DNA from: Bacteroidota bacterium
Lineage (GTDB): Bacteria > Bacteroidota > Bacteroidia > Cytophagales > Cyclobacteriaceae
Assembly (NCBI GenBank): GCA_022567155.1
Contig: JADFHN010000001.1
Coordinates: 1 to 64,000 of the forward strand
Reading direction: 5' to 3'
DNA length: 64,000 nucleotides
Positions 5,555-63,726 of this stretch are shown here, one piece after another (positions within the stretch are counted from its first letter, which is position 1; the number at the start of each line of letters is the position of its first letter). The notes under the pieces were generated by a model. The model searched no databases. It was not told the DNA's origin and saw only the letters and a list, made by a program, of their open reading frames with translations. The translations under genes and the position numbers were made by a program.

Positions 5555-6324
5555 CGGAGGGCGTCAAATTTAATAAGGCTTACTTGATGGCCATCAAATT
5601 CAGCGTAATATGAATTGGTAACCCAATCACCCAAATTAATGTAGGTACTCGACTCATTGATTTTTATTTCTAGTGGGACATGGCGGTGTCCGAAAATGTA
5701 GTAATCAAAATGTTCCTTTTCTTCATTCCTTTTACAGAAGTCTAATAAAAAATCGGTATCCTGTTCAAATGTGTCAGTTCCTTCATTGCTGATCCGGCTT
5801 TTGCCCGCCCAGTATTTTGCCAGTCCGATTCCAAGATTCGGATGAATACGTGCAAATGCCCATTGACATATCTTGTTGCTGAATATTTTCTTCATAATTT
5901 TGTAAGTTATATCGCTGGGTCCGAGTCCGTCGCCATGCCCCACTAAAAGTTTTATTCCATTGATCTCCAACTTCATAGGTTCTCTGTAGATATTAATATT
6001 GAGTTCTTTTGGAAAATAATCAAACATCCACATATCGTGATTGCCGGTAAAAAAAATAACCGTAGTGCCGGAATCAGTGATTTCGGCAAGTTTGCCCTGT
6101 AGCCTAACGAAACCTTTTGGAATTGCATTTTTATATTCGAACCAGAAATCAAAGATATCACCAGCCAGAATAATGGCTTCGGCTTCTTCTTTTATATGAT
6201 CAAGCCATGCCACAACCTTCTTTTCTGTGTGCAGGCTGCCTTTTCCATCCGGAGCCCCCAGATGGAAATCAGATGCGAAAAACAACTTCTTGTTATCCGG
6301 GAGTTCTTTTAGGGTATCCAGCAT
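5551..6324 (-). CDS. lpxH: LpxH-like UDP-2,3-diacylglucosamine diphosphatase
   Basis: A 257-residue calcineurin-like metallophosphoesterase with every metal-binding motif: DFHLG (Asp19, His21), GDIFDF (Asp56), GNHD (94-97), GHGD (His130) and GHRH (213-215). Length and the SDFHLG start fit LpxH, which hydrolyses UDP-2,3-diacylglucosamine to lipid X plus UMP in lipid A synthesis at the inner membrane. Other UDP-sugar or generic phosphoesterases of this superfamily have the same core, so the substrate is inferred. It lies 70 bp downstream of ftsH on the same strand and is coupled by a 4-bp overlap to the secreted protein that follows. Confidence 0.8.
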   Translation of the reverse strand: MLDTLKELPDNKKLFFASDFHLGAPDGKGSLHTEKKVVAWLDHIKEEAEAIILAGDIFDFWFEYKNAIPKGFVRLQGKLAEITDSGTTVIFFTGNHDMWMFDYFPKELNINIYREPMKLEINGIKLLVGHGDGLGPSDITYKIMKKIFSNKICQWAFARIHPNLGIGLAKYWAGKSRISNEGTDTFEQDTDFLLDFCKRNEEKEHFDYYIFGHRHVPLEIKINESSTYINLGDWVTNSYYAEFDGHQVSLIKFDALR

Positions 6325-6394
6325 AAATTATGAAATATAAAGATCAGATACCTGGAAGTATCTGATCAGGAATAAGCCAAAAATGATAATAGTA

Positions 6395-8539
6395 TTAATG
6401 CTCTTCAATTGGTTTTTCGGGCGATTTATCACCAGCCCCCGGTGCTTCATCGGTGGTGCTGATTTCGCCCAGGCCATTCGATCCTTTCTTTCCTGCTCCG
6501 GTCTTATCATTGGAATTTTTGTTTTCGGCATCGAGGGTAATTTCCTGATCCTCTTTTTTTGCCTTTTCGCGTGCCTTCTTCTCCTTTTCTTCTACACGTT
6601 TGGTAAACTCCTCATAAGCTGTAGGATGTTTAAATGGACGTTTACCAATCAAAGCCTCCAGGTCGCTTTGGAAAATAACTTCTTTTTTAAGTAGTTCCTT
6701 TGCTACTATGATAAGCTCTTTTTTCTTATTTGTGAGCAATTCTTTTGTTCGCAGGTAAGCCCCATCCACTATTTTCTTCACCTCCTGATCGATCAACTCG
6801 GCAGTTGCTTCTGAATAAGGCTTGTTAAACTGATACTCCCCTGGTTTTGATTCATAGTAGGAAATATTACCGATCTTGTCATTCATTCCATAAATGGTTA
6901 CCATGTTGTACGCCATTTTGGTGATTCTTTCAAGATCGCTTAATGCGCCGGTTGAGATTTTTCCTAATACAATTTCTTCTGCCACACGTCCTCCGAGCGC
7001 CATGCACATATCATCCATAAGCTGATCGGTTTGGTAAAGATACTGTTCTTTGGGTAAATACTGCGCATAGCCTAATGATGCAATCCCTCGTGGAACAATG
7101 CTTACTTTCACCAGCGGGTCTGCATGTTTGAGAAACCAGCCTGCAACCGCATGACCGGCTTCATGATAGGCCACGATCTCTTTTTCTTCGGGTAAAATGA
7201 TCTTGCTTTTCTTTTCAAGACCTCCGATCACCCGGTCAATGGCATCCTGAAAATCGTCCATATCCACAGCCTTTTTGTTTTTCCGGGCGGCGATAAGTGC
7301 AGCTTCATTACTTACATTGGCAATTTCGGCGCCTGCAAAACCAGGCGTTTGGGCAGCAAGCTTTTTCGTATCTACCGTCTTGTCAAGTTTTATGGGTTTC
7401 AGGTGAACCTTGAAGATGGCTTCCCTTCCCATGATATCCGGTTTATCTATGCTGATCTGCCGGTCGAATCTGCCGGGACGCAACAATGCAAAATCCAGCA
7501 CATCCGGCCGGTTGGTTGCAGCGAGAATGATAACCCCGGAATCAGTCGAAAAACCATCCATTTCTACCAACAGCGAGTTCAGAGTGTTTTCTCTTTCGTC
7601 ATTGGCGCCGGGCACCTGTCCGCGCGCTCTTGACCGGCCAATAGCATCTATTTCGTCAATAAATACAATACAGGGCGCTTTTTCTTTTGCCTGCTTAAAA
7701 AGATCCCTGACCCTGGCCGCCCCGACACCTACAAACATCTCTACAAAATCAGAACCCGATAAGGAGAAAAACGGAACGGCGGCTTCTCCGGCCACCGCTT
7801 TGGCCAACAAGGTTTTACCGGTGCCGGGAGGTCCTACCAGCAATGCGCCTTTTGGAATTTTGCCTCCTAACTTCGTGAACTTGCCGGGGGTCTTCAGGAA
7901 ATCAACAATTTCTTTCACCTCTTCCTTAGCCTCATCAAGTCCGGCAACATCATCAAACGTGATTTTCACTTTGTTGTCAGCATCAAACAAAGCCGCCCGT
8001 GATTTACCTATATTAAATATCTGACTACCAGGCCCGCCTGATCCGGTCATCCGGCGCATCAGGAACCAGAAACCGAAAAGTATCAGAATAAGAAATCCCC
8101 AGTTGAACAGAAAACTCATTACATCATGCCGGTCTTCAATTGTATAGGAGATGGTCTGCCCGGTTGATTCTTCCAGAATCCTGAGGCGTGAAATAAAAGC
8201 AGCAGGCTCAAGCAACTGAAAACGGTATTGCGGACCATCTCCTGATGCAAAAGGGCCCCTGTTTTCAAGCTCTGACCTGTATTTGGCATTTTGAAGTGCA
8301 TCGCTTTTCAGATAAACCTCAACAATTTCCTGATTCTTTATGATCGTAATCCGGTCCACATCTTTACTCTCCACCATTTCTTCGAACCGGTTCGGAGGAA
8401 TTTCGATGGTTGCACCAGACCTGTTGAAATAGGTAACTGCAAAAATTAAACCCACCAATGACACGATAATCCAAATCTGATAGTTTGGCTTATGTGGTGC
8501 ATTGGAGCCCATTTTTTTCTTATCCTTTTTATTTGCCAT
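6395..8539 (-). CDS. ftsH: ATP-dependent zinc metalloprotease FtsH
   Basis: A 714-residue membrane AAA+ protease. Two transmembrane helices (about 21-37 and 146-161) flank a periplasmic domain. The AAA module has Walker A GPPGTGKT (236-243), Walker B around [11 protein letters not shown] (291-301) and the arginine-finger region LLRPGRFDR (352-360). The zinc site HEAGH is at 459-463. It degrades misfolded membrane proteins and short-lived regulators, and in enterobacteria LpxC, which makes the nearby lipid A gene notable. The charged C-terminal tail after about residue 640, rich in Glu, Lys, Asp and Asn, looks disordered. It follows rsfS on the same strand after 68 bp. Confidence 0.97.
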
Positions 8540-56800: not shown

Positions 56801-57871
56801 ATGGAAAAAAAAAGCAGTCAGTTTCTCGAGAAATATCTCAACAATGCATCACCAACAGGGTTTGAGTCATCCGGCCAGAGAATATGGCTCGACTACCTGA
56901 ATCCATTTGTAGAAGATTATTTTACTGACACTTATGGAACTGCAGTAGCTATCATCAATTCTGATGCTGATTATAAGGTGGTTATAGAGGCACATGCTGA
57001 TGAAATATCATGGTTTGTAAATTACATTACTGATAGCGGATATATTTATGTAGTGCGGAACGGGGGGTCGGATCACCAGATAGCACCAGGGAAAAGAATA
57101 AATATTCATGCCGACAAGGGCATCGTAAAAGGAGTATTTGGTTGGCCTGCAATACATGTAAGGCAGGGCGAAAAAGAAACCCAGCCATCCATGAAAAACA
57201 TATTCATCGATGTTGGCGCTGACAGCAAGAAGGAAGTAGAAAAATTGGGCGTGCATGTAGGCGCAGTGATTACATTTGAGGATGAATTGATGGTGCTGAA
57301 TAATAAATACTATGTGGGCAGGGCGCTTGATAACAGAATAGGTGGGTTTATGATTGCAGAAGTTGCAAAACGACTATCAAAGAAAAAAATAAAACTTGAT
57401 TTCGGGCTTTACATTGTTAATTCTGTTCAGGAAGAGATTGGATTGCGCGGCGCACAGATGATAGCTGAACGTATCAGGCCTGCGGTTGCCATCATTACCG
57501 ATGTGTGTCACGATACCATGTCGCCGCTGTATAACAAAAAGAAAAGCGGCGAACAAAAGGCGGGACTAGGCCCGGTGCTTACCTATGGCCCTGCGGTACA
57601 TAACAATGTGCTGAAAATGATCATAAAAGTGGCTGAGAAAAAGAAGATACCCTTTCAACGGGCAGCAGTATCGCGATCTACCGGTACGGATACAGATGCG
57701 TTTGCCTATTCGAGCGAAGGGGTTGCCTCTGCGCTGATTTCTTTACCGCTGAAGTATATGCACACCACGGTGGAAACAGTGCATATGAAAGACATCGAAA
57801 ATGTGATTAAGCTTATATATGAGTTTCTTTTACAGCTTAAACCAGGTCACGATTTCCGGTATATCAAATAG
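56801..57871 (+). CDS. M42-family aminopeptidase
   Basis: A 356-residue metallopeptidase of the M42 (glutamyl aminopeptidase/TET) family. Metal ligands are visible in EAHADEISWF (His65, Asp67), ALDNRIGG and VQEEIGLRGA, plus the Asp and His of ITDVCHD and MHTTVE. The family forms dodecameric tetrahedra that digest short peptides in the cytoplasm. It ends the carboxyltransferase-SDR-peptidase set. Its 3' end converges on the unknown gene at 58011, across 139 bp without a clear terminator. Confidence 0.92.
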   Translation: MEKKSSQFLEKYLNNASPTGFESSGQRIWLDYLNPFVEDYFTDTYGTAVAIINSDADYKVVIEAHADEISWFVNYITDSGYIYVVRNGGSDHQIAPGKRINIHADKGIVKGVFGWPAIHVRQGEKETQPSMKNIFIDVGADSKKEVEKLGVHVGAVITFEDELMVLNNKYYVGRALDNRIGGFMIAEVAKRLSKKKIKLDFGLYIVNSVQEEIGLRGAQMIAERIRPAVAIITDVCHDTMSPLYNKKKSGEQKAGLGPVLTYGPAVHNNVLKMIIKVAEKKKIPFQRAAVSRSTGTDTDAFAYSSEGVASALISLPLKYMHTTVETVHMKDIENVIKLIYEFLLQLKPGHDFRYIK

Positions 57872-58010: not shown

Positions 58011-59855
58011 TTAAGCTGGTACAGTCTGTTTTCCGAGCTGGCTGGAATCTTCCATCAGGATCATACCAACATGATACAGTTCATCCCTGAGTTGGTTCAG
58101 GTCATTCAGGACCATATTTTTTAGGCCGTTGAGTTTTAAATTAAAATCCGAAATCAACTGGTTATAATATTCTATGCCATCATTTAAATTTTGCTGAAAA
58201 GTAAGAAAGTACTTGCGTTGCCTTTCTTCTATGGGCATAGCTACTTCTGAAATCAGATTTTTCAGGTAGTCGATATACATTTTCAGTTCTTTGATAAACA
58301 TATGAGGGCGGTCATTTACCTTAATGATGTTTATTCTTCCGTAAATATGATCCACCATTTCCTTTAAGGAAACCTTTTCTGTAAAGTATGCCATATTCGG
58401 TCCCGGACAAATAGAAACCCCCGTTCCATTGGCTTTTGTATTGATATCGTTTACGATCATAGCTGCAGTTCCCAATCCTACACAAAGACAGGACTTGTTA
58501 ACTATTTTTTCAAACTCAGCCTTGTACGCTTCAGGGTCCATTAGTTTTTCTTCCAGTTCCTTGATTTTAATGTACTGATACTGCCGTGATGCAGTACAGA
58601 TAGATTTGTCAGTATAGTCTTTATTAGAAACCAGAAATTTCTTTGGGCACGGACTTCCAGGCCGGTTTTTGTTTATTAGTTCCTGTTTTTCAATGTCTTT
58701 GGAATTACTTCTCAATGTATTAAAAGGAATACCCAGAGGAGAAATGTTACTGAGGTACAAATCATCTTCGCCCGCTTCGCACAATTTGTTTCTTGTATAC
58801 GTATCAACATTGGTAACTTCCGAAACCAAAAGAAACGGAGTGGCCCAGCCAACCGCATCAAGCTCATAATGCTCAAGTAGAAACTGATGCTCCTGTGCTG
58901 TACCGACTCCTCCTTGCGTAGTGATTTTTATCTGAGGAGGTGTTGCGGGACAAGGGCGGTTTTTGTTATTCAGCGACTGTACCAGAATTTCATATACGGT
59001 TTGAATCAGTGTATTACGGCTGTTTTTAAATTCTTCCAGAATAGGCCCCAGCAGAAATCCATCGGTTGCAAAAGCATGTCCTCCGCAGTTCAGTCCGGAT
59101 TCAACCCTGTATTCAGAAACCCAAAGTCCTTTTTTAGCCAGAAATTTACCCTGTATTAATCCAGATCGATAATCACTTACCTTAAGTACAATCTTCTTTT
59201 TAATATACCCGTTTTTGTCAGGATAGAAGTCCTCAAATTGCTCAAAATAGCCGTATAGCCTCGGATTCAAGCCGGCAGATAATATTATCGAAGACTCAAG
59301 GCAGCTATTTGCAAAACCTCTCAGCGAAGCATGCGCATCATTGTATTCGGAAGGAAGTTTTTCATTTTTTTTGTAATTTTCCTTATCAAGTTTAGTCATG
59401 ATATTTACATCAATACTGCCAATAGCAAGGTTTTCATGAATCCAATCCCGAATATTTTTTAAATTGCTGTTTTTAACAAACAAGTCAAATTTTTGTCTCA
59501 ATTCGGTTGCATCAGGAAGCAGACTGAAATATTTCTCCAATTCACTTCCACTATCAATAATGGAGTTTTTTAGGCTTGCAAATTTCTCTTTTACTATTTT
59601 ATCAATGAGGTTGAGATACTCGGTGATTCTTTTTGCTCTGAAATCATCAATTTTGTTAGTAATAGCCTTGAAAGGCAGCTTGTATTTACTGCTGTAAAAC
59701 TCCCGCATCTTTTCAATAAGGATATCATCAACCAATGAGATCACAGAAGATATACCCAGGTGAGCAACCTTTACGGGGGTATCAATAGAGAAAGATGTTC
59801 CCATTACCGGTATGTGAAAAGTGTGGTTTTGAGCTTTATTTTTTTCGTTTTTCAT
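58011..59855 (-). CDS. Uncharacterised 614-residue protein, FMN/TIM-barrel-like
   Basis: No family can be named with confidence. No signal peptide or membrane helix is seen. A start HIPVMGTSF (14-22), NCGGHAFATDG (256-266) and QGGVGTAQEHQFLL (314-327) followed by VGWATPFLLVSE (335-346) recall the glycine-rich phosphate and flavin sites of nitronate monooxygenase/FabK/glutamate-synthase-type barrels. Nine cysteines (185, 257, 302, 359, 403, 420, 456, 458, 483) include a C-x-C pair and three C-P contexts, compatible with a metal or redox role. Residues 70-180 and 500-600 are mostly helical, the last likely coiled coil. It has a full promoter of its own and stands alone between shikimate gene aroA and the M42 gene. 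Confidence 0.75.
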   Translation of the reverse strand: MKNEKNKAQNHTFHIPVMGTSFSIDTPVKVAHLGISSVISLVDDILIEKMREFYSSKYKLPFKAITNKIDDFRAKRITEYLNLIDKIVKEKFASLKNSIIDSGSELEKYFSLLPDATELRQKFDLFVKNSNLKNIRDWIHENLAIGSIDVNIMTKLDKENYKKNEKLPSEYNDAHASLRGFANSCLESSIILSAGLNPRLYGYFEQFEDFYPDKNGYIKKKIVLKVSDYRSGLIQGKFLAKKGLWVSEYRVESGLNCGGHAFATDGFLLGPILEEFKNSRNTLIQTVYEILVQSLNNKNRPCPATPPQIKITTQGGVGTAQEHQFLLEHYELDAVGWATPFLLVSEVTNVDTYTRNKLCEAGEDDLYLSNISPLGIPFNTLRSNSKDIEKQELINKNRPGSPCPKKFLVSNKDYTDKSICTASRQYQYIKIKELEEKLMDPEAYKAEFEKIVNKSCLCVGLGTAAMIVNDINTKANGTGVSICPGPNMAYFTEKVSLKEMVDHIYGRINIIKVNDRPHMFIKELKMYIDYLKNLISEVAMPIEERQRKYFLTFQQNLNDGIEYYNQLISDFNLKLNGLKNMVLNDLNQLRDELYHVGMILMEDSSQLGKQTVPA

Positions 59856-59954
59856 TTAAAGATGGTTTCGTAAAAATGCTGGAATTGGTAAATCAAATTG
59901 TCCGCCAGGCCAACAATACATAATTGTACGGAGTGCGGAGGTACATTTAAATAG

Positions 59955-59986
59955 CAAAGATATCAATTAACAGGATTATATTCAAA
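59955..59986 (-). promoter_or_regulatory. Promoter of the 614-residue gene
   Basis: On the minus strand, TTTG (59986-59983), 20 bp, then TATCTTTG (59962-59955). This is a full consensus match giving a leader of about 90 nt. A 7-bp inverted repeat, CAAATAT (59990-59996) with ATATTTG (60001-60007), lies just upstream and could be an operator. Confidence 0.7.
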
Positions 59987-60037
59987 TGACAAATATCATT
60001 ATATTTGCATCAGGCTGTATATCAATGAGCTATAAAA

Positions 60038-61270
60038 TTAAATATTTATTAGTTCCACACCCGAATTTGCCACATCACTCCAAAATGAAGGATAGGACTT
60101 TTCTACAACCGTAGGTTCGGTTATTTCAACATCCATTACCGTACAAAGAGGAGCAAATGCCATTGCCATCCTGTGATCATCATAAGTATTTAAAACGGTT
60201 TTCCTTGGTAATACACCACCCGGAACCAGTTTATATTCATCATCTCCTGATTGCACAAATGTGCAATTGATTTTTGAAAGTTCATTCTGAAGTGCAGCAA
60301 TCCGGTCGGTTTCTTTTATACGTAAACTGCGGATTCCGGTGAATTTCGCTTTTATTTTTTTTGCAGCACATACTACTGCAATGGTTTGTGCCAGATCGGG
60401 GCAGTCGGTAAAATCAATGCTGACTTCAGATTTAGCTTTAATTTTAGACAATTGTATGCCTGCATCGTCAAATATTGTTTTTACCCCCAGTTCAGCCATT
60501 ATTTCACAAATAACTTTATCTCCTTGTAAAGATTGGTTTTTTAATCCCGGAAGAAAAATTTCGGCGTTGTTTGCCAGTGCCACAAAGGCAAACCAATAGG
60601 AAGCTCCGCTCCAGTCAGGTTCTATGGTGATATCTTTACACTCGATCGGCTGACCAGGGATAGTGATCACCTGATTTTTCCAGTCATAAGTGACACCAAA
60701 CTGCGAAATAATATTTAGCGTCATTTCAATATATGGTTTGCTGCCAGTTTTGCCTGTCAGTTCTATTGAAAGGCCGTTGGGAAGAGCCGGCGCTACCATG
60801 ATAAGCGCCGATATATACTGGCTGCTCACGTTTCCGGGTATGCTGACAAATGCGGACTTTTGTTGCTTAAACCCGGATATGCGGATGGGAGGAAAACCTG
60901 TGTTATTTAAATATGTGATTTCACAACCAATCTGTCTAAGTGCGTCAATAAGTATTCGTATGGGCCTTTCCTGCATACGCAAGGTCCCTGTTAGCACCTT
61001 TTGCTGCCTGGTAATTGCATAATATGCTGTAAGAAAACGCATAGTTGTACCTGCATCGTGAACATTTTGCACTTCATCGTTGTTATTTAGTAGTGAGCGG
61101 AGGGTTCTGGTGTCTCTGGCGGTTGAGAGGTTGGTAATACTGGTATTTTTTCCAGATAACGCCATTAAAATCAGAACCCTGTTGCTCTCACTTTTAGATC
61201 CTGGAACATGAATAAAAGATGTTTTGAGCTGCGAAGTATTTTTTAATAGTATGTTTTCAGGTCTGTTCAA
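60038..61270 (-). CDS. aroA: 3-phosphoshikimate 1-carboxyvinyltransferase (EPSP synthase)
   Basis: A 410-residue enzyme that joins PEP to shikimate-3-phosphate. PGSKSESNR (23-31, Lys26), DAGTTMRF (72-79), the DWSGASYW segment (219-226) and the C-terminal DDHRMAMAFAPL are present. Gly74 is the counterpart of the glyphosate-contact glycine of E. coli, and Phe79 replaces the usual Pro, as is common in the phylum. It is separated from aroB by a small oppositely directed gene and so has its own transcript. Confidence 0.95.
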   Translation of the reverse strand: MNRPENILLKNTSQLKTSFIHVPGSKSESNRVLILMALSGKNTSITNLSTARDTRTLRSLLNNNDEVQNVHDAGTTMRFLTAYYAITRQQKVLTGTLRMQERPIRILIDALRQIGCEITYLNNTGFPPIRISGFKQQKSAFVSIPGNVSSQYISALIMVAPALPNGLSIELTGKTGSKPYIEMTLNIISQFGVTYDWKNQVITIPGQPIECKDITIEPDWSGASYWFAFVALANNAEIFLPGLKNQSLQGDKVICEIMAELGVKTIFDDAGIQLSKIKAKSEVSIDFTDCPDLAQTIAVVCAAKKIKAKFTGIRSLRIKETDRIAALQNELSKINCTFVQSGDDEYKLVPGGVLPRKTVLNTYDDHRMAMAFAPLCTVMDVEITEPTVVEKSYPSFWSDVANSGVELINI

Positions 61271-61400
61271 TTTAATATTTATTCGAATAGTTGAAAAATA
61301 TATTTAAATAATAGAATCTATTTATTTACTTTTACGTATAATCAAATAAATATATTTTTTCAGGCACGTTTATTGTGTCATTTAATTATCAATCAAAAAT

Positions 61401-61592
61401 ATGAATAAATCGGTCACCATATTTTTAGGTGTTGCTACCGGAGCTTTTTTTGCCCTGGTAGCATTTACAAAAGCGGGTCGTAAGCTACGGAAAAGCATAC
61501 TGAAGAAAGCTGATGAATTGAAAGAATCAATGATTTTTGATATTGAAAAAAAAGCCAGGTATATTCATGACTCTGAAGTTTTATATAACTAA
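61401..61592 (+). CDS. Small YtxH-like membrane protein
   Basis: A 63-residue protein with an N-terminal transmembrane segment (about 5-23, containing two glycines and GAFFALVAF), followed by a basic and then helical tail (GRKLRKSILKKADELKES). This resembles YtxH-type proteins with a glycine-rich helix and amphipathic tail. Function unknown. It lies between aroA and aroB on the opposite strand, divergent from aroA, and its stop shares CTAA (61589-61592) with that of aroB. Confidence 0.65.
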   Translation: MNKSVTIFLGVATGAFFALVAFTKAGRKLRKSILKKADELKESMIFDIEKKARYIHDSEVLYN

Positions 61593-62638
61593 GTTTTGAG
61601 ATTCCGGTAATAGTCTAATGCTTCAATGGCGCCAGTACGATCTATCTCTACATCATAAACTGCCTTGCCAATATCTTTTAGCAGGGTGAAACGTATTTTA
61701 TTATCTACATTTTTTTTATCCTGCATCAGCATTTCCACAAACGTAGATTCATTTATTTGCTTTAAATCTTTGTTTCCGAAATATTTCAGAATAATTGCGA
61801 CAATTCTGTGGTGATTTGCTTCAGGCATTGCAAGATTTCTGACCGATAACCAGGATTCGCAAATCATCCCGATTGCCACGGCTTCTCCATGCAGCATTTC
61901 TGTGTTGTTTTGTTGTAGAAAGTTTCCTTCCAATGCATGTCCTATGGTATGGCCGAAATTCAGGATCTTTCTGAGCCCTTTTTCAACTGGGTCTTCTTCT
62001 ACGATGTCGTTCTTAATTTCAATTGACCTGTAAATCAGGGTTTTCCAGTCCGTATTTGTGAGATCTGCTATATTTTCATGAACTTCAAAATAGGCGGCAT
62101 CGTATATCAAACCATGCTTGATTACTTCTGCAAATCCGGAAATCCGCTGATTATCCGGAAGTGTTTCCAGAAACACCGGATCAATGATGACCTTGTCGGG
62201 CACCCGGAAAACACCTATTTGATTTTTATAAGGGCCAAGGTCAATTCCAAGCTTACCTCCTACGCTGGCATCTGCCATGGCCAGCAAGGTGGTCGGTATA
62301 TGGATGAAATCAATTCCTCTTTTAAATGTGGCAGCACAAAATCCCCCCATATCACAAATAACACCTCCGCCCAGGTTGATCAGCAGCGAACTCCTGTCAA
62401 AGTGCTGAGCAGAAAGCCATTTCCAGATTTCTTTGCTTGTATCCATATTCTTATGGTTTTCACCGCTGCTGATTGTAAATGTAGTATGGGCAGGCAAAGC
62501 GTTTTTAACCTTTGGATAACATAGTTCAATGGTATTTTCATCGGCAAGCACACCAATTTTTGAATACCTGTTTTTATTCAGGAAAGTTTCGAGCGATAGC
62601 TGTACGGGGTAGTTTATCGAAATATAATCGGGGATCAT
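61589..62638 (-). CDS. aroB: 3-dehydroquinate synthase
   Basis: A 349-residue NAD- and zinc-dependent cyclase acting on DAHP. The NAD-binding GGGVICDMGGF (90-100) and the zinc ligands Glu171, His234 and His250 (same spacing as the fungal enzyme) are in place. Its start overlaps the stop of the DAHP synthase gene by four bases (62635-62638), so the first two steps of the pathway are translated together. The 3' end overlaps the YtxH-like gene by four bases. Confidence 0.95.
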   Translation of the reverse strand: MIPDYISINYPVQLSLETFLNKNRYSKIGVLADENTIELCYPKVKNALPAHTTFTISSGENHKNMDTSKEIWKWLSAQHFDRSSLLINLGGGVICDMGGFCAATFKRGIDFIHIPTTLLAMADASVGGKLGIDLGPYKNQIGVFRVPDKVIIDPVFLETLPDNQRISGFAEVIKHGLIYDAAYFEVHENIADLTNTDWKTLIYRSIEIKNDIVEEDPVEKGLRKILNFGHTIGHALEGNFLQQNNTEMLHGEAVAIGMICESWLSVRNLAMPEANHHRIVAIILKYFGNKDLKQINESTFVEMLMQDKKNVDNKIRFTLLKDIGKAVYDVEIDRTGAIEALDYYRNLKT

Positions 62639-63726
62639 GTTTTGTTTCCTGTATTATTTTTTTTCATGATTTCAGTTTGCGACCGTATGGATTCATCATG
62701 AATCAGCTTATACAGTTTTTCCACAAACATTTTATCAAGTTTAAGAGATGTTCCCAGGTCGCTGCGGGTTTTCAGAAGGTACTTCCACCGTTCGAGCTGG
62801 AAAACAGTGACGTTGTTTTCTTTTTTATAAAATCCAATTTCATCAACCAGTTTCATTCGTGCCGAAAGCGTTTCGAGCAGTTCCTGGTCCACCAGGTCAA
62901 TTTTTTCCCGGAGTTCTTCAAGTTTGGTCAAAAACCGCACATTATCGCTTGTTCTTTTGCGAATTTTTAGTCCGTCAATGAGGCGCTTTAGTTCGTCCGG
63001 TGTTATTTGTTGTTTAGTGTCGCTCAATGCTTCTTCAGGACGGATATGTACTTCCACCATTAAGCCGTCATAATCCAGGTCCATGGCTTTTTGGCAAAGT
63101 TCCATTATCATGCTTCTTTCGCCGGCTATATGGCTTGGATCACATATCAGCGGCATTTGAGGCAGTTCACTCTTAAGTTCGATAGCCAGGTGCCAGGTGG
63201 GCGGATTACGGAACCGTGATTTCTGAAAAGATGAAAACCCACGGTGTACTGCAGCAAGTTTGGTGACACCGGCACGGTTTATCCGTTCGAGCGCTCCAAG
63301 CCACAGCGAAATATCGGGGTTGAGTGGGTTTTTGACCAGTACCGGTTTATCTACCCCTTTAATGGCTTCAGCCAGCTCCTGAACAGCAAAGGGGTTTGCG
63401 GTTGTACGCGCTCCGACCCAGAACACATCGATATTCGCTTTCAGCGCCTTTTCGACGTGCAACGGAGTGGCCACCTCGGTTGCAAACTTTAAGCCCAATT
63501 CATCCCTTATTTCACTGATCCAATTCAGGGCGCTGTCGCCGGCACCTTCAAAATTTCCCGGCCGGGTTCTCGGTTTCCATACACCCGCCCGGATAATGTC
63601 TATACCTATGGTTTTAAGGCTTGCTGCAGTGCTGTAAAGCTGTTCTTTTGATTCTGCACTGCAGGGACCTGCAATAATAAGCGGGGGGTATTTTACACCC
63701 CAGGTATGCATGCCGGAAATATCCAT
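62635..63726 (-). CDS. Bifunctional DAHP synthase / chorismate mutase
   Basis: A 363-residue fusion. Residues about 1-250 are a type I-beta DAHP synthase (GPCSAES 20-26, AGVWKPRTRP 47-56, DPSH 196-199). About 266-350 is an AroQ-type chorismate mutase (LREKIDLVDQELLETLSARMKLV). The mutase is at the C-terminus, as in other Bacteroidota and unlike Bacillus, where it is N-terminal. The mutase part usually gives feedback control by prephenate. It is the first gene of the minus-strand pair with aroB. No consensus promoter was seen in the 98 bp upstream. Confidence 0.94.
   Translation of the reverse strand: MDISGMHTWGVKYPPLIIAGPCSAESKEQLYSTAASLKTIGIDIIRAGVWKPRTRPGNFEGAGDSALNWISEIRDELGLKFATEVATPLHVEKALKANIDVFWVGARTTANPFAVQELAEAIKGVDKPVLVKNPLNPDISLWLGALERINRAGVTKLAAVHRGFSSFQKSRFRNPPTWHLAIELKSELPQMPLICDPSHIAGERSMIMELCQKAMDLDYDGLMVEVHIRPEEALSDTKQQITPDELKRLIDGLKIRKRTSDNVRFLTKLEELREKIDLVDQELLETLSARMKLVDEIGFYKKENNVTVFQLERWKYLLKTRSDLGTSLKLDKMFVEKLYKLIHDESIRSQTEIMKKNNTGNKT

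Follow-up and report, generated by a model that had tools for sequence, protein, structure and literature searches.

The window, which is the whole stretch of 64,000 nucleotides that was analysed, belongs to a draft genome of 4.09 Mb and carries on its minus strand an open reading frame (ORF) for a protein of 614 residues, the features of which are collected in Table 1. As far as can be read from their translations, its flanking genes encode an M42-type aminopeptidase (56801..57871, plus strand) and aroA (60038..61270, minus strand). The latter is part of an ordinary shikimate cluster (60038-63726, minus strand) that lies upstream of the 614-residue gene on the same strand and comprises, by the names read, aroA (EPSP synthase), aroB (3-dehydroquinate synthase) and a DAHP synthase-chorismate mutase fusion. 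A first-pass annotation, made from the letters of the sequence, had described a complete 614-residue frame with the motifs HIPVMG, NCGGHAFATDG, QGGVGTAQEHQFLL and VGWATPFLLVSE and with nine cysteines, at positions 185, 257, 302, 359, 403, 420, 456, 458 and 483, and all of these were found in the protein as described.

Table 1. Coordinates in the window of the ORF, its promoter elements and the regions of the encoded protein
Feature	Position	Strand	Basis or remark
FabX-like flavoenzyme ORF (predicted nitronate-monooxygenase fold), unnamed family	58011..59855	-	614 aa, ATG to TAA; structural model and conserved family
C-terminal helical region, residues 519-607	58035..58301	-	secondary structure of the model
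Cys-rich region, residues 403-483 (C403, C420, C456, C458, C483), proposed Fe-S-binding subdomain	58407..58649	-	all five Cys present in each of 112 sequences; region lies within the VIA alignment to FabX
Glycine loop QGGVGT following barrel strand 7, residues 314-319	58899..58916	-	Q314, G315, G316 and G318 invariant or nearly so; aligned by hhalign to AAGGIA of the NMO profile
CGGH, residues 257-260, at the putative catalytic His position of the NMO family (FabX H182)	59076..59087	-	C257 and H260 invariant in 112 sequences; GGH aligned to NMO/FabK profile
Helical insertion, residues 72-142, four helices	59430..59642	-	secondary structure of the model
-7 element TATCTTTG (TAnnTTTG)	59955..59962	-	23 bp downstream of the palindrome
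-33 TTTG element	59983..59986	-	shares one base with the palindrome; 20 bp to the -7 element
CRP/FNR-type palindrome ATGATATTTGTCAT	59986..59999	-	centre at about -41 relative to the predicted start of transcription

Distribution and conservation of the family

Full-length close homologues of the protein are encoded in 33 of 98 relatives, and the family is present in 75 of the 198 sampled Bacteroidota species, spread over the phylum. In the GTDB species-level genome collection at least 576 matched stretches were found; those listed are mostly from Bacteroidota, with a few labelled Ignavibacteria, Calditrichota, Cloacimonetes, Planctomycetota and Sumerlaeota. Throughout these hundreds of genomes, members are 46-66% identical to the window protein, nearly always over the full length, and almost always there is one copy per genome. 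Sequence conservation on this scale places the ORF beyond chance. One genome (G244) contains, beside an intact copy, a second and broken one with several stops and frame changes (C1:4371167-4372922), and the copies of two others (G173 and G248) have single stop codons.

Among 112 distinct family sequences, cysteines 257, 403, 420, 456, 458 and 483 are conserved in every case, and cysteines 185, 302 and 359 are not conserved. Conservation of at least 98% extends to N151, K225-V226-S227-D228, R230-S231, K241-K242, E252-S-G-L-N-C-G-G-H260, Q314-G315-G316, G318, G336-W337, P340-F341, S372-P-L-G375, G400-S401, G460-L461, P484-G-P-N487 and H503-I-Y505, and of the conserved positions N151, E252, C257, G258-G259-H260, Q314-G315-G316, G336-W337 and the five cysteines on the C-terminal side are invariant. 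The window protein itself deviates from the family by having A338 and S345 (in FLLVSE) where at least 95% of members have G338 and P345.

Pfam and NCBIfam scans of the window protein and 20 members returned sub-threshold coiled-coil noise alone, and PF03060, the model of nitronate monooxygenases (NMOs), matched neither the window protein nor any of the 20. PDB sequence searches likewise gave noise, and three family profiles run with hmmsearch against PDB sequences do not reach FabX; in plasmid records searched with tblastn, no family match was found. A candidate model, NF001645, was rejected as noise, scoring 22 bits where its cut-off demands 162. As judged by sequence comparison, a family with neither a Pfam or NCBIfam model nor a PDB sequence match is a real annotation gap, and it matters in view of what is missed, namely a mostly single-copy protein of ~50-60% identity in more than one third of the sampled Bacteroidota species.

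Predicted fold and the cysteine-rich region

An AlphaFold2 model of the window protein built from 55 family members (mean pLDDT 89.3, pTM 0.91) has the alternation of strands and helices of a TIM barrel, with barrel strands at residues 13-15, 37-40, 148-153, 189-193, 221-226, 246-252, 310-314 and 334-336. The first-pass annotation had suggested a flavoenzyme of the NMO/FabK/PfaD kind, and the prediction bears this out, in that the top 49 solved matches of the model are all FabX, FabK, PfaD, enoyl reductases of fatty acid synthases or nitronate monooxygenases. In VIA alignments, every one of the top structures is Helicobacter pylori FabX, with Z of 24.6-26.2, rmsd of 3.1-3.3, as many as 332 residues aligned and identities of 20-21%. 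The best of them covers 331 of 363 residues at Z 26.2, rmsd 3.2 and 20% identity, and the runners-up are FabK (Z 22.6 at most), 2-nitropropane dioxygenase, PfaD and the enoyl reductase domains of fungal and mycobacterial fatty acid synthases. Foldseek also ranks FabX first (E 4.3e-10); with an earlier model built from 20 sequences, FabX was on top in VIA (Z 26.6) and PfaD in Foldseek. A profile comparison by hhalign with Bacteroidota FabK/NMO proteins, which reaches E 1.7e-4 at a probability of 50% only, pairs the GGH, GGIG and GTRF-like positions, in agreement with the earlier reading of GGH and GG(I/V)GT loops. Furthermore, the large helical insertions formerly placed at 70-180 are seen in the model as helices within 72-142, and the supposed C-terminal coiled coil as a helical region. 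On the strength of the model, the window protein almost certainly has the FMN/NMO fold, although the predicted fold by itself shows no substrate.

FabX of H. pylori (HP0773; PDB 7e1q), an acyl-ACP dehydrogenase/isomerase, shares with the window protein the FMN-type TIM barrel, the GGH motif and a matching C-terminal subdomain, which in FabX holds a [4Fe-4S] cluster. It differs in having 363 residues rather than 614, the additional helices 72-142 and 519-607 being found in the window protein; moreover, the window family is a separate one, 46-66% identical internally, not matched by PF03060 and with another spacing of cysteines. In FabX, the barrel takes up residues 1-266 and the [4Fe-4S] subdomain the 97 residues 267-363, the ligands being C300, C304, C308 and C320 (PMC8626469). 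Because 331 of the 363 FabX residues are aligned, leaving about 32, at least ~65 of the 97 residues of this subdomain must be matched in the window protein. The five cysteines invariant in this region thus form a probable site for the bound metal that had been considered possible at first pass. The spacing of the FabX ligands, C300-x3-C304-x3-C308-x11-C320, is absent from the family, whose C403, C420, C456, C458 and C483 are spaced otherwise, and the family is therefore classed as FabX-like, not as FabX.

Judging from the structural match, the window protein probably holds an Fe-S cluster. The unlike spacing would also suit a protein of the same fold and regulation in which the invariant cysteines are zinc ligands or are paired in disulfides, but this is unlikely, given that they sit in a subdomain structurally matching the [4Fe-4S] subdomain of FabX and that the gene is co-regulated, as described below, with genes for oxygen-labile Fe-S enzymes (HemN and 2-oxoacid:ferredoxin oxidoreductase). 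The VIA alignment ends where residue 507 of the model meets residue 363 of FabX, which suggests that C483-P-G faces FMN like F339-T-G341 of FabX; with C483-P-G so placed, C403, C420, C456 and C458 are the likeliest cluster ligands in the model.

Residues were mapped onto FabX by motif spacing. By this mapping, H260 would correspond to the catalytic H182 of FabX, C257 to S179, which adjoins FMN, N151 to N99 and S227 to S149; the distance of 33 between S227 and H260 equals that between S149 and H182 (FabX positions from PMC8626469). In FabX, the helix after strand 5 binds ACP via K152, R160 and R164, and in the family, helix 229-241 and the next turn carry R230, K237, K241 and K242, at positions that are invariant or hold K/R in most members, the equivalence to FabX being by motif spacing only.

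FabK (enoyl-ACP reductase II) and PfaD (an enoyl reductase of PUFA/PKS synthesis) belong to the same superfamily of FMN TIM barrels and share the GGH and GGIG loops. They follow FabX in the structural ranking (Z 20-22.6), and the PfaD alignments reach further into the C-terminal helices, up to residue 573, as would be expected if the window protein were an enoyl reductase of this type that uses NAD(P)H on a special acyl chain at low oxygen. We consider this improbable, since FabX outscores both in two aligners and the five invariant cysteines stand where FabX has its Fe-S subdomain, in place of the NAD(P)H-binding motif of FabK, an enzyme devoid of an Fe-S subdomain (PMC8626469); in addition, pfa or PKS genes were not noticed in the neighbourhood.

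Promoter and probable low-oxygen regulon

The minus-strand promoter predicted at first pass, TTTG followed after 20 bp by TATCTTTG, is present, and the palindrome that overlaps it had been missed. For flavobacterial promoters, TAnnTTTG has been published as the -7 consensus (PMC9723704), and a sigma-70 scan is not informative for Bacteroidota. The palindrome emerged from a comparison of 115 family upstream regions as ATGAYNNNNRTCAT, i.e. ATGAYN4RTCAT. Perfect copies occur in 26 of these regions against 0.2 expected from shuffles, and at least nine of ten positions are matched in 48 against 7.5 expected, most carriers being without a perfect site. Genes neighbouring the homologues in the same loci have a perfect palindrome in 30 of 690 cases, so that the family is enriched for it (odds ratio 6.4, p 1.4e-9). 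In those regions that have a TAnnTTTG box downstream of the palindrome, the distance between the two is 22 bp in 12 cases and 23 bp in two, including the window (0.06 expected per offset), and this fixed offset puts the palindrome centre near -41, where CRP/FNR activators of class II sites bind. With its TGA-N6-TCA core at about -41, the window gene is very probably, on sequence grounds, under low-oxygen control of the FNR type.

In the window's genome the palindrome occurs 51 times, many of them inside genes, against 10 for a reversed control pattern. One intergenic site (L222), a perfect one, lies upstream of a gene for a CRP/FNR-family protein whose N-terminal SCANCKHC...C makes it a candidate for the regulator, and the gene for a 2-oxoacid:acceptor (ferredoxin) oxidoreductase subunit (L216) has the same composite promoter as the window gene. 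The composite of palindrome and TAnnTTTG is found in 42 of 198 Bacteroidota genomes, the control pattern in almost none, and genomes of one flavobacterial-type family hold as many as 15 sites each. In such site-rich flavobacterial genomes it precedes ccoNO (cbb3 oxidase), hemN (oxygen-independent coproporphyrinogen oxidase), hemA, nirK (copper nitrite reductase), pckA (PEP carboxykinase), PPDK (pyruvate phosphate dikinase), pta (phosphate acetyltransferase) and genes for methylmalonyl-CoA epimerase, c-type cytochromes and an Rrf2 regulator. By its promoter sequences, this gene set reads as a classic low-oxygen regulon, and as the window gene shares the composite with ccoNO, hemN, nirK and fermentation genes, its promoter sequence makes it a member. 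Like FNR/ANR-type anaerobic regulons, the set combines a TGA-N6-TCA core at about -41 (class II) with targets such as ccoNO, hemN, nirK and fermentation genes; unlike them, the Bacteroidota version consists of ATGAY-N4-RTCAT and a -7 TAnnTTTG box, with the cognate regulator at the stage of a candidate. The composite, ATGAY-N4-RTCAT with TAnnTTTG at 22-23 bp, is usable for regulon annotation.

This regulation bears on a further explanation, that the protein is a monooxygenase detoxifying nitronates or nitroalkanes and induced with nitrosative stress. Nitronate monooxygenase/2-nitropropane dioxygenase (PF03060) has the same fold and catalytic His motif, NMO structures of this superfamily are among the matches (Z 18-20), and some loci have neighbours resembling nitric oxide reductase, RIC/ScdA and Rrf2 in their translations, one Rrf2 being confirmed. 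Such a function is nevertheless very improbable: NMO chemistry consumes O2, yet the promoter is of the low-oxygen type; the cysteine-rich region also differs, PF03060 fails to match, and an ordinary PF03060 protein is encoded separately in the genome (L119, G000:C163:17181-18077).

The flavoenzyme-plus-metal reading of the first-pass annotation is thus supported at the level of the predicted fold, and to it are added FabX as the closest relative, the likely kind of metal centre and the low-oxygen regulation.

Neighbourhood and proposed function

Homologues are usually transcribed alone, and no conserved fatty-acid-synthesis operon was found around them. Recurrent neighbours in 99 homologue loci are nadA-nadB, Rrf2 regulators, the anaerobic ribonucleotide reductase gene nrdD together with nrdG, a copper ATPase and ccoN/cbb3-oxidase genes. 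In some flavobacteria nrdD directly adjoins the homologue; an overall co-occurrence of the family with NrdD is absent (4 of 75 carriers vs 7 of 123 non-carriers). A true FabX, sought by its Cx3Cx3C motif among Bacteroidota PF03060 matches, was not found in the examined loci.

The frequent company of nadA-nadB, beside the homologue in 17 of the 99 loci and in differing orders, among them gene-nadA-nadB and, on a single strand, nadA-nadB-gene, underlies the main rival explanation, namely that a low-oxygen FMN/Fe-S enzyme of this fold acts on a substrate other than acyl-ACP, for instance in NAD or cofactor metabolism, and resembles FabX in scaffold and cofactors only. An identity to FabX of only 20% and the inserted helices, which FabX lacks, speak in the same direction. 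However, NadB alongside already covers the oxidation step of the NAD route, the adjacency is found mostly in Flavobacteriaceae with gaps of ~200 bp that suggest separate transcription, and the closest folds, FabX, FabK, PfaD and the enoyl reductases of fatty acid synthases, work on acyl chains bound to carrier proteins. We regard a non-acyl substrate as conceivable and rather doubtful.

The best explanation, held tentatively, is an FMN-binding, FabX-like and probably [4Fe-4S] enzyme that would provide unsaturated acyl chains at low oxygen. FabX dehydrogenates and isomerises decanoyl-ACP, which creates the double bond for unsaturated fatty acid synthesis, and a FabX homologue of Neisseria gonorrhoeae is described as required for anaerobic double-bond formation with an electron acceptor given as unknown (PMC8626469; PMC11300592). 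UfaA of the same species (NGO1024) has a role like that proposed for the window protein, in anaerobic unsaturated fatty acid synthesis, and is an ordinary FabX homologue sharing ~36% identity with the Bacteroidales FabX described in PMC11300592. By analogy, O2-independent dehydrogenation and isomerisation of acyl-ACP for unsaturated fatty acids is a possible activity of the window enzyme, albeit one we put at somewhat less than even chances.

In such a scheme, an FNR-type regulator would turn the gene on at low oxygen via the class II site. The substrate would be an acyl-ACP (or acyl-CoA), from which His260 would abstract a proton while hydride passes to FMN, and the resulting trans-2-enoyl thioester would be isomerised to a cis-3-enoyl intermediate, the Fe-S cluster handing the electrons on. 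H. pylori FabX needs O2 in vitro, and an anoxic version would therefore need another acceptor. The outcome would be unsaturated acyl chains made without an O2-dependent desaturase, as is the role of FabX in H. pylori. HemN is the oxygen-independent partner of an oxygen-dependent step, and a FabX-like enzyme co-induced with it suggests in the same way a replacement of oxygen-dependent desaturation. More broadly, the family may, with similar reserve, represent a widespread and unnamed class of Fe-S flavoenzymes with its own ligand set and extra domains, which under FNR control would serve the O2-independent formation of unsaturated fatty acids, or a corresponding dehydrogenation at low oxygen, in facultative Bacteroidota.

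Placement in the FabX branch and under low-oxygen control makes testable how membrane fluidity is maintained without oxygen in Bacteroidota that use O2-dependent desaturases. FabX is moreover presented as a species-specific drug target under development (PMC12079444), and a broad look-alike family bears on the selectivity of such an approach. PF00487 desaturases are encoded by 58 of 75 carriers vs 61 of 123 non-carriers (p 1e-4), a difference confounded by phylogeny, and 17 of the 75 carriers are without any. At a single locus, in a MAG of the Saprospiraceae, the gene for a PF00487 fatty-acid desaturase (L042:4805-5974) overlaps the start of the homologue (5974-7779) by one base.
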